This document shows positions 58,439-62,577 of a stretch of 64,000 nt of DNA, piece by piece. A program made the translations under genes and the position numbers. A model generated the notes under the pieces. It was not told where the DNA came from. It saw only the letters and a list, made by a program, of their open reading frames with translations, and ran no database searches. This DNA comes from Streptomyces sp. NBC_00525 (GTDB lineage: Bacteria > Actinomycetota > Actinomycetes > Streptomycetales > Streptomycetaceae), in the NCBI RefSeq assembly GCF_036346595.1, contig NZ_CP107834.1:3658001-3722000 (forward strand), written 5' to 3'. Position 1 is the first letter of the stretch; every line of letters begins with the position of its first letter.

Positions 58439-58479
58439 CGTCAGCGGGTCAGCAGGTCGGCGCGTCAGCGGGTCAGCAG
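58439..58479. repeat. 17-bp direct repeat at the 3' end of the HD gene
   Basis: CGTCAGCGGGTCAGCAG occurs at 58439-58455 and 58463-58479. The second copy is the last codons of the HD gene, so the first is a duplicate of its 3' end. Confidence 0.6.
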
Positions 58480-59115
58480 CGCCAGCTCCGTCAGCAGGTT
58501 CTGCCGTGCCCGCGGCTCCCACTCCGCCACCCCGTACGGGGTACGGAACAGTCGCGGCAGGTCCAGGAGCTGCCGCAGCACTTCCGCGCGGCCCTCGCGG
58601 AACGCCTCCTCCGGCACGAAGCCGTACTCCTCGCGGACCCGGGAGGCGTACGCCGCGTACTCCGCCGGCGGGGACGCCAGGATCGCCAGGTCCGCGTCGC
58701 ACAGCACCTCGCCGTTGGTGTCGCCCGCGGCCGGGTCGTGCGTGACCGTGAGGCGGACGAGGCGGGCGACCTCCGCCACGACCGGGGCGGGCACACCGGC
58801 CTCCGGCAGGGCGCGTTCGGCCAGGGCCGCGCTGCGCTCCTCGTTCTCCGAGCGGTCGGGCCGGTAGACCGCGTCGTGGAACCAGGCCGCCAGGCGTACG
58901 GCGTCCGCGTCGGCGGCATGGTCCGCGAGCGTGTCGACGCGGTCCAGGACCGCCGTCAGGTGGGCGGTGGTGTGGTACTTGCGCTGCGGCTCCGCCCAGC
59001 GGTTCAGCAGGTTCTCGGCGTACGGAAGGGGGTCGGGGCCCTCGCCGCCGCGCCGGGCCGCGACGAGGGCGTCCTGCCAGCGGGTGCGGAGACTCTGCGC
59101 GCTGTCGTCGGTCAT
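58465..59115 (-). CDS. HD-superfamily metal-dependent phosphohydrolase
   Basis: A 216-residue HD protein: metal-site His in KYHTTAHLTAVLDRVDTL, the HD doublet in AWFHDAVYRPDRSEN, and late Asp in VLCDADLAILASP. It is the stand-alone predicted HD type without nucleotidyl or GGDEF parts; the substrate may be a nucleotide or sugar phosphate. It is 350 bp from the solute-binding operon on the same strand, with a short gap, so it could be its last gene. Confidence 0.82.
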   Translation of the reverse strand: MTDDSAQSLRTRWQDALVAARRGGEGPDPLPYAENLLNRWAEPQRKYHTTAHLTAVLDRVDTLADHAADADAVRLAAWFHDAVYRPDRSENEERSAALAERALPEAGVPAPVVAEVARLVRLTVTHDPAAGDTNGEVLCDADLAILASPPAEYAAYASRVREEYGFVPEEAFREGRAEVLRQLLDLPRLFRTPYGVAEWEPRARQNLLTELALLTR

Positions 59116-59155: not shown

Positions 59156-60067
59156 TCAGTCCGGTGGGCTGTCGCCCGGCCGGTCCACGCAGGACAGGGC
59201 CATGATCTCGTCCTCGGTCGGCTTCGCCTCGTCCCGCGTCTCCTTGGGGACCTTGCCCAGGCTGTTCTGGAAGTCGCGTTCCCAGGCCGTGGCCCGGCGC
59301 ACGTACTCGATCAGCGCGTCGCGCAGCCGGACGCAGTCCTTGCGGTGGCCCTTGGCCATGGCGATGCCGTAGTCGTTCGGCTCGCCGAACTTGATGCCGG
59401 GCACCACCCGGAGCGTCGGGTTCGCCGCCTCGAACCCGTAAAGGATCAGCTGGTCCGTGGAGACGGCGGCGACGTCCTCCTTCCCGTCCTTGAGCGCCCG
59501 CACACACGCACTCGCGTCCTCTTCCGTCCGCAGGACGATCTTGTCGTGCGAGGGCTTGCTCAGCTCGTTGGCGGAGGTGGTGCCCTTCCATACGCAGACG
59601 ACCCTGCCGTTGAGGTCGGCCAGCTTCCGGATGCTCTTGTCGTCGTCGCGGATCAGGAACCCCTGCTGGGTGGAGGCGTACGGGCCGACGAAGTCGAGGC
59701 CGTCACCGCCCTCGTCCGCCGGCGCCATCCGGCTGGGGGTGATCGAGTACGTGGCGGCCACCAGCTGCACATCGCCGTCGTGCAGCAGCCTGGCCCGGTT
59801 CTTGGACAGCACCCCGCTGAAGCGCGGGGTGTCGTAGCCGAGCATGTTCATGAGGTTGCCGACGACGGAGATGTCGAAGCCGTTGTACTCGCCGTCGTGC
59901 GGCGAGTAGCTCGTACCGGGCTGGTCGCTCTTGGCCGCGACCTCCGTGCGGTCGCTGAGGATCGACTCCGGTTCGGAATCGCAGCCGGTCGCGGTCACGT
60001 ACAGCGCGGCCGCCGCGACGGCCGCCGTGACGGTCACCGCCCGCCGGTGCCGGACTGCTCGTGTCAT
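59156..60067 (-). CDS. Solute-binding lipoprotein (family 3), orphan
   Basis: A 303-residue exported protein: signal TVTAAVAAAALYVTATGC with a TATGC lipobox-like site at about residues 25-29, then a family-3 binding domain with NGFDISVVGNLMNML, AATYSITPSRMAPAD and LDFVGPYASTQQGFLIRD. Such proteins normally bind amino acids, but no permease or ATPase genes adjoin. It is the third gene of an operon with the membrane protein and the motif protein, so it may serve as an external sensor rather than a transport component. Confidence 0.8.
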   Translation of the reverse strand: MTRAVRHRRAVTVTAAVAAAALYVTATGCDSEPESILSDRTEVAAKSDQPGTSYSPHDGEYNGFDISVVGNLMNMLGYDTPRFSGVLSKNRARLLHDGDVQLVAATYSITPSRMAPADEGGDGLDFVGPYASTQQGFLIRDDDKSIRKLADLNGRVVCVWKGTTSANELSKPSHDKIVLRTEEDASACVRALKDGKEDVAAVSTDQLILYGFEAANPTLRVVPGIKFGEPNDYGIAMAKGHRKDCVRLRDALIEYVRRATAWERDFQNSLGKVPKETRDEAKPTEDEIMALSCVDRPGDSPPD

Positions 60068-60112
60068 CTGTGCCTCGCTCCCTGTGCGTTGTCGCCCTGC
60101 GCGTTGGCGGCG

Positions 60113-60856
60113 TCAGTCGTTGTGGAGGACGGCCCGCCAGTCGACCAGCCGCAGGGTGCAGCCCTCGACGGTCCGGACCTGCAGTTCGAAGGAGGTGCCG
60201 GACCGGTCGGCGAGATCGCCCAGCGCGAAGTCGGTGGTGGAGCGGGCGGGCAGCCGGGACCGGCGCGGGGTGACGCCCTGGGTGACCGCGGTGAGCAGGA
60301 CGTGCGTCTTGTGGGAGCACGCCGGGGCGTCCGGATCGTCCTCCCCGATCTCCAGGGTGAGCCGGAGCCGGTCCCGCCGGTCGGCGTGGTCCGGCTGGGG
60401 CAGCGTGAGGGTGAGGGCGCTGCCCGGCTCCCCGGTGAGCGGCTGCTCGCCGGTCACCCGGATCGTCGCCGGGACCTCGCCGTTGCGTACGACGTTCTGG
60501 AAGGACCACCAGCTGACCAGGGAGAGGACGAGCGAGGCGATGAGCAGCCAGGTCCGCGCCCGGTACCGGAACCCCCGGCCCTGCGGCCGGCTCGTCCCGA
60601 TGTGGATGACGGCGGTCAGGAAGGCGAGGATCAGAAAGACGAAGAAGGCGGTGTACTGCTTGCGCGGGCCGCCCGGCCAGTTCCAGGCGGCATAGCCGGC
60701 GAAGACGGTCGCCAGGACGAGGAAGAGCCAGCCCGCGACGGAGGGCATCCGCTGGAAGAAGATCTGGACCATGGTGCCGACACGGCTGATGATCGTGCCG
60801 CCGTCACCGTAGTTCTTGCCGTCGAACGAGCTCCCTGTGCCGGGACCGTCGCTCAT
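60113..60856 (-). CDS. Three-helix membrane protein with N-terminal TIISRVGTMVQ motif
   Basis: A 247-residue protein. Residues 1-35 are cytoplasmic and contain YGDGGTIISRVGTMVQIFFQ. Three helices follow: WLFLVLATVFAGYAAW, YTAFFVFLILAFLTAVIHIG and TWLLIASLVLSLVSWWSF. The rest (about 120-247) is a beta-rich exterior domain with Cys pairs (DAPACSHKTHVLLTAV and VEGCTLRLVDWRA). Its ATG overlaps the motif protein by four bases, and the solute-binding lipoprotein lies 45 bp downstream. The N-terminal motif resembles the C-terminal motif of the upstream gene. Family unknown. Confidence 0.6.
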   Translation of the reverse strand: MSDGPGTGSSFDGKNYGDGGTIISRVGTMVQIFFQRMPSVAGWLFLVLATVFAGYAAWNWPGGPRKQYTAFFVFLILAFLTAVIHIGTSRPQGRGFRYRARTWLLIASLVLSLVSWWSFQNVVRNGEVPATIRVTGEQPLTGEPGSALTLTLPQPDHADRRDRLRLTLEIGEDDPDAPACSHKTHVLLTAVTQGVTPRRSRLPARSTTDFALGDLADRSGTSFELQVRTVEGCTLRLVDWRAVLHND

Positions 60857-61284
60857 GGCCGGTCGTCTCTCAGGTGCTGGTTGAACGTCCCGACGGTGCC
60901 GATCACCGTGTTGTAGTCGCCGTGCGACTCGACGCTGATCCGCTGGGTGGGTGCGGTGGCCCTGACCACGTTCACGAGGCCGGGGTCCTTCTCCGGGTCG
61001 GCCAGCCAGGTGGTCAGCGCGGTGGCGAGCCTGTCGCGTTCCTCATCGTTCAACCCCGCCAGCATGGCGTCCAGCCGGTCGGCGTCCTGCGAGGTGAGCG
61101 CGCCCTCGTCGGCGGACGCGGGATCGTCCCGGCCGATGAGGCGCCGGAACGTGCCCTCGCCCGCGTCGAGGGCACGGTCGGAGATCCGGTCCACGGTGCC
61201 CTGCAACACGCCGTCGGCCGCGCGGGAGGCGAAGAAGGAGAAGTAGGGAGCAAGCTGGCCGGCGAGATCGATCAAAAGAGACAC
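60853..61284 (-). CDS. Small helical protein with C-terminal N-x-V-x-G...Q motif
   Basis: A 143-residue protein: an amphipathic N-terminus (LLIDLAGQLAPYFSFFASRA), helices with RDDPASADEGALTSQDADRL and LNDEERDRLATALTTWLAD, and the tail SHGDYNTVIGTVGTFNQHLR. Its tail pairs with the start of the next gene: TVIGTVGTFNQ and TIISRVGTMVQ share T, I, V, G, T and Q at the same positions. The family is unknown to me. It heads the three-gene operon; the design suggests a cytoplasmic component passing a conformational signal to a membrane partner. Confidence 0.6.
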   Translation of the reverse strand: MSLLIDLAGQLAPYFSFFASRAADGVLQGTVDRISDRALDAGEGTFRRLIGRDDPASADEGALTSQDADRLDAMLAGLNDEERDRLATALTTWLADPEKDPGLVNVVRATAPTQRISVESHGDYNTVIGTVGTFNQHLRDDRP

Positions 61285-61395: not shown

Positions 61396-62577
61396 TCAAC
61401 TGGTGACGGACGGCAGGCCGAAGTGGTCGGCGATGATCCGCAGGGTGACGCCGCCGTCGTCGTTGAAGCCGGGCTCGGCCTCATAGCGCGGGATCTCCCG
61501 GCCGATGACTCCGGCCGCCAGCAGCTCATGTATCAGCAGGTCACCGTGGCGGCGGGACTCGCGGCGGCACCCGACGTTGAAGTACGTCGTCTCGAAGCCG
61601 CGCCGGCTGTGCTGGAAGTGGAACGGATGCGCCGCGCAGTGCGGGACGCCGTAATGCTGCCCGTCCGGGCACTCGCAGGCCGGGGCGGAGGACAGGAACA
61701 CGGTCTCCACCGGGTTGGGCTTGCCGAACCGGTCCTCGTAACGGAATCCGGTGACGAACCCGGCCTGCTGGCGGGCGTCGCCGCCGTTGTCCCTGGCCGG
61801 GTCGTGGGTCACCCAGGCCCAGCCGTCCGCCTCGCCCGACGTACGGGCGGGGAGACCGGCGTCGGCGTAGATCGCGGTGAGCGTGGGCAGGTCCACGCCC
61901 TTGGCGTACGTGACGTACGTGTTCGGCGGGACGAGGGGCGCGGCCGAGGGACCGGCGGGGGCGACGCCGGCCGGCGCGGCAGGCTCCGGTTCCGCCGCGG
62001 CAAGGACCGCCACCGCCGCCCCGCCCGTCACCTCGCGCGCGAGCGGCGGCGACGGCAGTCCGAAGCACGCGGCGATCGCCCGTGCGACCCGCTCGTCCCG
62101 GTCGTCCCGGTCCCCGTCGTGCTCCCAGCAGTCGTGGGAAGGGTCCGTCTCCCACACCCGGCACTCCGAGTCCGGCCCGATGAGGTTCGCGGCGAGCAGT
62201 TCGGCCGACAGGTAGTCCGGGCTGGTGCCGACGCGCTGTTCCAGGTCCTCGAAGCTGAAGTGGATCGTGCAGACGCCGTCCCGCAGCAGTGTGAAGGTCG
62301 GCGGGTGCGCCTTGACGCTGCACGGTTCGGTCACCAGCACCACGACCTCCGCCCCCGGCGGGCAGATTCGCCGGTAGTCGACGTCGTCGTAGTCCTCGGC
62401 CTCCGCGTTGACCATGTCGTGCACCGCCCACGCCCACCCGTCGGCCTCCCCCGAGGCCAGCGGCTCCCGCGCCAGCTCACGCAGCCCGGAGACGAGCGCG
62501 TCCAGGGAGATCCCTCGCGCGAACACGAGATTGGTCTCGTGCCACATGAACTCGCAGGTGCTGTCGATCCACGTCAT
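61396..62577 (-). CDS. Protein with two tandem copies of an unknown domain
   Basis: A 393-residue soluble protein with two related halves. Both contain the block SGEADGWAWxxHD: the first at about residues 41-53 (EADGWAWAVHDM), the second near 260 (EADGWAWVTHDPA). Each half has Cys/His-rich positions, such as CECPDGQHYGVPHCAAHPFH in the second. An Ala/Pro-rich linker (about 190-220) joins them. The start at 62577 is set by a clean ATG that leaves out a polar head. It is common in Streptomyces but its function is unknown. Confidence 0.65.
   Translation of the reverse strand: MTWIDSTCEFMWHETNLVFARGISLDALVSGLRELAREPLASGEADGWAWAVHDMVNAEAEDYDDVDYRRICPPGAEVVVLVTEPCSVKAHPPTFTLLRDGVCTIHFSFEDLEQRVGTSPDYLSAELLAANLIGPDSECRVWETDPSHDCWEHDGDRDDRDERVARAIAACFGLPSPPLAREVTGGAAVAVLAAAEPEPAAPAGVAPAGPSAAPLVPPNTYVTYAKGVDLPTLTAIYADAGLPARTSGEADGWAWVTHDPARDNGGDARQQAGFVTGFRYEDRFGKPNPVETVFLSSAPACECPDGQHYGVPHCAAHPFHFQHSRRGFETTYFNVGCRRESRRHGDLLIHELLAAGVIGREIPRYEAEPGFNDDGGVTLRIIADHFGLPSVTS

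Follow-up and report, generated by a model that had tools for sequence, protein, structure and literature searches.

Three genes on the minus strand, here called g1, g2 and g3, form an operon near the end of the window, the 64,000-nucleotide stretch of Streptomyces sp. NBC_00525 DNA (contig NZ_CP107834.1) that was analysed (Table 1). The first encodes a small helical protein with a motif close to its C-terminus (the tail), the second a membrane protein with a similar motif close to its N-terminus (the head), and the third a binding lipoprotein that starts 45 bases past the end of g2. A promoter and terminator scan found none. The flanking genes (61396-62577 and 58465-59115) have no Pfam match over cut-off, and the gene at 58465-59115 holds its position 3' of g3 in L036-L042.

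Table 1 Genes and features of the operon, in coordinates of the window
Feature	Position	Strand	Description or source
g1	60853-61284	minus	143 aa, GTG start
g1 residues 1-110, helical Bell-like domain	60955-61284	minus	AlphaFold model and hhalign to ten Bell proteins
g1 tail motif, residues 120-136 (SHGDYNTVIGTVGTFNQ)	60877-60927	minus	operon comparison
ATGA stop/start overlap of g1 and g2	60853-60856	minus	4 bp
g2	60113-60856	minus	membrane protein of 247 aa in which the head motif precedes three TM helices and a C-terminal beta domain
g2 head motif, residues 15-31 (NYGDGGTIISRVGTMVQ)	60764-60814	minus	cytoplasmic by prediction
g2 beta domain, residues 126-247, predicted to lie outside the cytoplasm; Cys180 and Cys233 conserved	60116-60481	minus	model
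g3	59156-60067	minus	303 aa, family-3 solute-binding lipoprotein (amino-acid type, GlnH-like)

The operon is a conserved unit. By the gene calls, g3 lies directly 3' of g2 in 55 of 57 distinct g2 copies, which bears out the gene order described from the window. The two copies without a called g3 are L071, in which a six-frame search finds the gene, and L068, which lies at a contig end. A 4-base overlap joins 30 of the 38 automatically called g1-g2 neighbours. With g2 as a single-sequence query, matches are found in 31 of 392 genomes of the genus (own genome included), and named carriers are Streptomyces sp. AC1-42W, OfavH-34-F, ATexAB-D23 and A1277; the g2 of AC1-42W is 93% identical to that of the window. 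A g2 profile matches 39 of 293 genomes of the order, some of them through short partial matches alone, and 3 of 198 genomes across the phylum, own genome included, all from the same genus. The g1 profile matches 47 of 392 genomes of the genus, 29 at E < 1e-26 and the rest at 5e-10 or weaker. L037 and L038, whose places are identical to L040 and L041, and repeat fetches of loci were dropped before counting, and L066, L069 and the short partial matches ranked lowest in the g2 and g1 searches were counted as unrelated. One genome (G199) holds a second g1 copy (C17).

The N-terminal domain of g1 is related to Bell, in passages of the literature an effector of bacterial amyloid signalling (PMC7889193, PMC8086366). 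The gene calls include a homologue of 128-148 aa at 12 of 20 loci with remote g1-profile matches and none at the other 8; ten of the 12 (E under 1e-9) entered an alignment of Bell proteins (A6), while L145 and L148 were left out. With hhalign, the g1 alignment (26 sequences) matches these ten over roughly its whole length (98.5%, E 3.3e-15). By profile comparison g1 is homologous to the ten proteins, which we equate with the published Bell family through their architecture: nine of them adjoin a large protein with NLR features, and the tenth (L133) has none in the gene calls. The neighbours match NACHT (L138) or NB-ARC (L132) over the Pfam cut-off, NB-ARC below the cut-off together with strong TPRs (L136, L142, L149) or nSTAND6 just under the cut-off (L140, L141), and those of L144 and L131 have TPRs with, respectively, a weak AAA match and a P-loop recognised by eye. 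The N-terminus of the neighbour matches the Bell tail at 7-9 of 11 positions in L136, L138, L141, L142, L144 and L149. The AlphaFold model of g1, at modest confidence (mean pLDDT 62.8), consists of helices only and opens with a hydrophobic helix (H3-23). A PDB fold search with this model gave no usable match (best E 4.5). Neither g1 nor g2 gave a PADLOC match, a Pfam match over cut-off or an NCBIfam match near cut-off.

In the model of g2 (mean pLDDT 83.7), three helices and a C-terminal beta domain follow the head, which at a pLDDT of about 50-60 is largely devoid of secondary structure. In 53 of 56 homologues the somewhat longer loop between helices 2 and 3 is richer in K/R than the loop between helices 1 and 2, and both Cys180 and Cys233 are kept in 55 of 56. 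The loop bias and the paired cysteines suit an N-in, C-out protein, and g2 is predicted to hold its head in the cytoplasm and its beta domain outside. Fold matches to Eph ligand-binding domains, carbohydrate-binding modules and others are too weak to name the domain, with TM-scores by query length of at most 0.33 among the matches listed. Neither Pfam nor NCBIfam gives an NB-ARC, NACHT or STAND NTPase match in g2, and the protein models as three TM helices and a beta domain. A standard NLR-BASS pair was rejected because the partner, g2, is not an NLR.

The lipoprotein g3 matches PF00497 (E 5.9e-10), and its PDB matches include amino-acid-binding proteins and GlnH; against M. tuberculosis GlnH (6h1u) the E value is 9.1e-13 for the window's g3 and 1.3e-29 for the family profile. 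A lipobox pattern is present in 21 of 27 g3 proteins as called. The residues SIT..R, TS and D are invariant in the g3 family and align with amino-acid-binding proteins including GlnH; we take these positions to be ligand contacts. The genes downstream of the window's g3 encode a protein of 216 aa, to which Pfam assigns no family over cut-off, and an MFS transporter, not an ABC permease. At L063, inspection showed a further binding protein and a gene for an ABC-type ATPase at least 1.4 kb past g3. With g3 an amino-acid-type binding lipoprotein and g2 predicted N-in/C-out, it is plausible, as had been suggested, that the operon could link a ligand outside the cell to a partner in the cytoplasm.

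In the window, TVIGTVGTFNQ (g1 residues 126-136) and TIISRVGTMVQ (g2 residues 21-31) share six of their 11 residues in register (T, I, V, G, T, Q), a count that the sequence-only reading had given correctly. To judge chance agreement, same-strand neighbours with a gap of up to 60 bases were compared: the last 40 aa of one protein were set against the first 45 aa of the next, and the highest count of identities over 11 ungapped residues was recorded. Of 103 control pairs, 3 reach at least 6, as do 33 of the 34 pairs with a Bell-type first gene (g1-g2 and Bell-NLR pairs together). Since three controls score as well, the 6 of 11 in the window is weak evidence when taken alone. Both segments are unstructured in the monomer models of g1 and g2. 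The window's g1 tail differs from that of L036 by 0 synonymous and 4 replacing changes in 26 codons, numbers too small for a claim on selection. With the tail as query against the window's genome (E up to 10), g1 alone was matched; the g2 head itself was missed, so further carriers of the motif are possible.

The comparison between operons carries the pairing. The set of 41 operons was made up of that in the window, those in two named records and those in 38 further genomes. From each tail and head we took 14 columns around an invariant glycine, and with these anchors, chosen by eye, tails and heads of the same operon are identical at 6.41 of 13 columns on average vs 3.21 between operons, and 0 of 20,000 shuffles reach the own value. 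Among the 15 operons at less than 60% g2 core identity the values are 6.60 (own) and 2.71 (other), and with shuffling restricted to clades joined at 50% core identity or more they are 6.41 and 5.89 (0 of 20,000). Local alignment without anchors gives mean scores of 33.7 for own and 22.7 for other pairs (0 of 20,000 shuffles); by this score the own head ranks first among all heads for only 7 of the 41 tails. When the tail is compared with the whole open g2 frame, no other segment matches it as well as the head in 38 of 41 operons, the window included. With a matrix built from the tails, each operon's own tail among the 41, and with 329 other N-termini as background, 39 of 41 heads score above the 95th percentile. 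The motifs are alike within an operon and different between operons, as in L065 (HTGSG in both tail and head), L096 (NTGPG in both), L058 (GDNSPAIG in both), L081 (GPNSPAIG in both) and L062 (GFGYV in both). Poorly matched pairs occur as well, in L123 (2 of 13) and in L082 and L129 (4 of 13 each). L083 stands outside the 41 operons because a long g2 start hid its head; read separately, its pair resembles the poor match of its sister L082. The paired motif is real, and tail and head diversify together: independent variation of the two segments, which the sequence-only reading had set against its own proposal, is not seen across the 41 operons. The likeness to RHIMs that was also proposed did not hold in sequence. 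The RHIM core tetrad, which we take to be [IV]Q[IVL]G, is present in 0 of 41 tail-head pairs, and membership of that family was rejected.

Copies of g2 that lack g1 also lack the motif, and the tail matrix recognises 0 of 15 of their heads. On the g2 core tree at least 3 changes are needed, and as 13 of the 15 copies group together the loss of the motif among these amounts to about one event, which leaves few independent events. The g2 homologues without g1 and without the motif include L064, L067, L068, L085, L086, L091-L094 and L097-L100, and g3 adjoins all of these except L068, where the contig ends. It may be that g2 and g3 together represent an older sensor unit.

How tails and heads change together was followed in 18 operon pairs with g2 core identity of at least 0.75. 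L075 and L076 are 82-100% identical (mostly at least 90%) along g2 from the first membrane helix and likewise 82-100% over the beginning of g1 and most of the flank upstream, whereas identity is 43-77% from about g1 residue 60 through the tail and the overlap to the end of the head, and then 93%. Their own pairs match at 5 and 6 of 13 columns and the cross pairs at 4 and 3. A single recombination across the g1/g2 overlap would explain this block. Rapid local divergence is also possible because further gapped dips in identity occur in the same alignment, at 688-807 and 2212-2458. Cassette exchange as a general rule was not supported, as L075/L076 is the only clear case among the 18 pairs; in the remaining close pairs the tail-head change is gradual or partial. 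Across the 41 operons, identical tail and head residues share a codon in 211 of 304 cases vs 171 expected from codon usage, and occasional conversion between tail and head DNA is possible. The corresponding 42-base blocks have a mean DNA identity of 66%.

In passages of the published accounts, Bell/BASS systems combine a C-terminal motif on Bell with a matched N-terminal motif on an adjacent NLR (PMC7889193, PMC8086366). As far as these passages describe Bell-BASS/NLR pairs (see also PMC9815663), the operon resembles them in having a Bell-type helical protein with a C-terminal motif, an adjoining or overlapping gene with a matched N-terminal motif, and motif families that differ from locus to locus. 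The arrangement across the overlap, with a Bell homologue as first gene, is a published signalling layout, as the sequence-only reading had proposed. The two differ in the partner, which is an NLR in the described pairs and here a membrane protein with an outside domain, accompanied by a binding lipoprotein. HeLo, MLKL and Bell are described in passages of the same sources as membrane-targeting, for Bell as a hypothesis (PMC7889193, PMC8086366, PMC9815663).

We consider it rather likely that the operon is a transmembrane, NLR-independent relative of bacterial amyloid signalosomes. As we infer the pathway, g3 would bind a small ligand outside the cell, probably an amino acid, and in its ligand-bound form would act on the beta domain of g2. 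The g2 proteins, altered or clustered, could then bring their cytoplasmic N-terminal motifs together into a seed, onto which the matching motif at the C-terminus of g1 would be templated by homotypic beta-stacking. Once clustered, the Bell domains of g1 may in turn act on the membrane, by analogy with HeLo/MLKL-type proteins, and lead to permeabilisation or cell death. That the contact between tail and head would take an amyloid form is suggested by analogy, from the arrangement of the motifs and the kinship of g1. The receptor plan has a counterpart in Drosophila PGRP-LC, a membrane receptor with an outside sensor and a RHIM-like cytoplasmic motif of the amyloid type; the proteins are unrelated and the operon motif is without the RHIM core.

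The same matching could arise if tail and head met homotypically without forming an amyloid, in a small beta complex or by docking on a shared third protein, and if g1 were thereby kept inactive at the membrane until the sensor lets go. The data are of matching and not of fibres, the segments are unstructured alone in the models, and a head placed just before the first TM helix would keep g1 at the membrane, all of which suits such a contact. We nevertheless regard it as unlikely, given that Bell and NLR partners with this layout form the amyloid signalling pattern of the published passages (PMC7889193, PMC8086366) and that the nearest kin of g1 outside the operon occur in the Bell-NLR pattern. 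Another reading, that tail and head resemble each other as a functionless remnant of a short stretch of DNA duplicated across the junction of the two genes, could draw on the excess of shared codons; we think it very improbable, as the 42-base blocks are only 66% identical on average, the match persists across divergent operons while the motifs change, and the motif is absent from g2 copies without g1.

A different function for the whole operon, nutrient sensing in the manner of GlnH-GlnX-PknG, with g1 regulating metabolism and not acting as a death effector, seems to us unlikely as well, slightly more so than the non-amyloid contact. In passages on mycobacteria and corynebacteria, that system likewise has three genes on the same plan of amino-acid-binding lipoprotein, membrane protein and cytoplasmic partner (PMC6069109, PMC9769921), GlnH of M. 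tuberculosis being its aspartate sensor (PMC6069109), and g3 is related to GlnH by sequence. The other two proteins speak against the likeness: GlnX is described there as all-helical with four TM segments (PMC9769921), unlike g2 with its three TM helices and beta domain, and PknG is a kinase, whereas g1 is Bell-like and has no kinase match in Pfam or NCBIfam. The coupling through a paired motif that we propose for the operon also sets it apart from GlnH-GlnX-PknG.

The NLR-independent signalosome can be extended, more tentatively and somewhat short of probable, to a system driven from outside the cell, in which a ligand-bound lipoprotein and a transmembrane receptor would nucleate a Bell death effector, and in which the motif pair could be exchanged as one cassette across the overlap, giving a strain-specific, allorecognition-like specificity. 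A review, one of the two sources on the Bell/BASS arrangement (PMC7889193, PMC8086366), raises the question whether signalling amyloids act in NLR-independent bacterial pathways. The operon is a concrete candidate for such an amyloid, recurrent in many Streptomyces. It has an identifiable input side, a binding lipoprotein with a measurable ligand, and its differing but matched motif pairs are a natural series for testing specificity. In the open-access literature we found no bacterial Bell/amyloid-motif pair with a membrane receptor; the founding Bell-BASS paper or its supplement could list such cases.

Two of the 15 g2 copies without g1, L051 and L095, lie outside the group of 13 on the tree and are leads. 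In L051 (genome G377), no g1 lies beside g2 and no g1-profile match occurs in the genome, and the g2 head (THNSVSGGQQQGGVTQAHTVNNL) is of another motif class. Elsewhere in that genome, VHNTISGGVQHGTVIQAHTIGDL ends a protein of weak Bell likeness (19.8 bits against the Bell profile, no match to the g1 profile), and VHNTVSGDAVIHGPVVQASMINSL opens an NLR-like P-loop protein whose NB-ARC match is below cut-off. The L051 head resembles both segments, and it is possible that the motif is shared in trans with these two proteins (L152, L153). At L095, a different small membrane protein takes the place of g1 upstream of g2, and its ASGGGSANSG looks like ASDGGTAVSG in the g2 head. At L070 (6079-7230), a weakly Bell-like protein (16.8 bits) has a RHIM-like tail (NQISGTVHGSVIQGQNI) and is followed by a different membrane protein with a similar-looking N-terminus (NNEISDGAKVGGNAYQARHMHF), possibly another Bell-membrane pair. 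In the window's genome, the Bell profile (A6) gave one match (E 0.02), and the stretch concerned holds no Bell gene; this is a weak negative because g1 itself was missed too. The same genome has 13 NB-ARC matches. Among the N-termini of four of these, one (L161, C1 about 3306467) looks RHIM-like (HRNEISGDTTLNGPTIQAREVHGGVHF); as it is unlike the operon motif, two motif classes may coexist in this genome.
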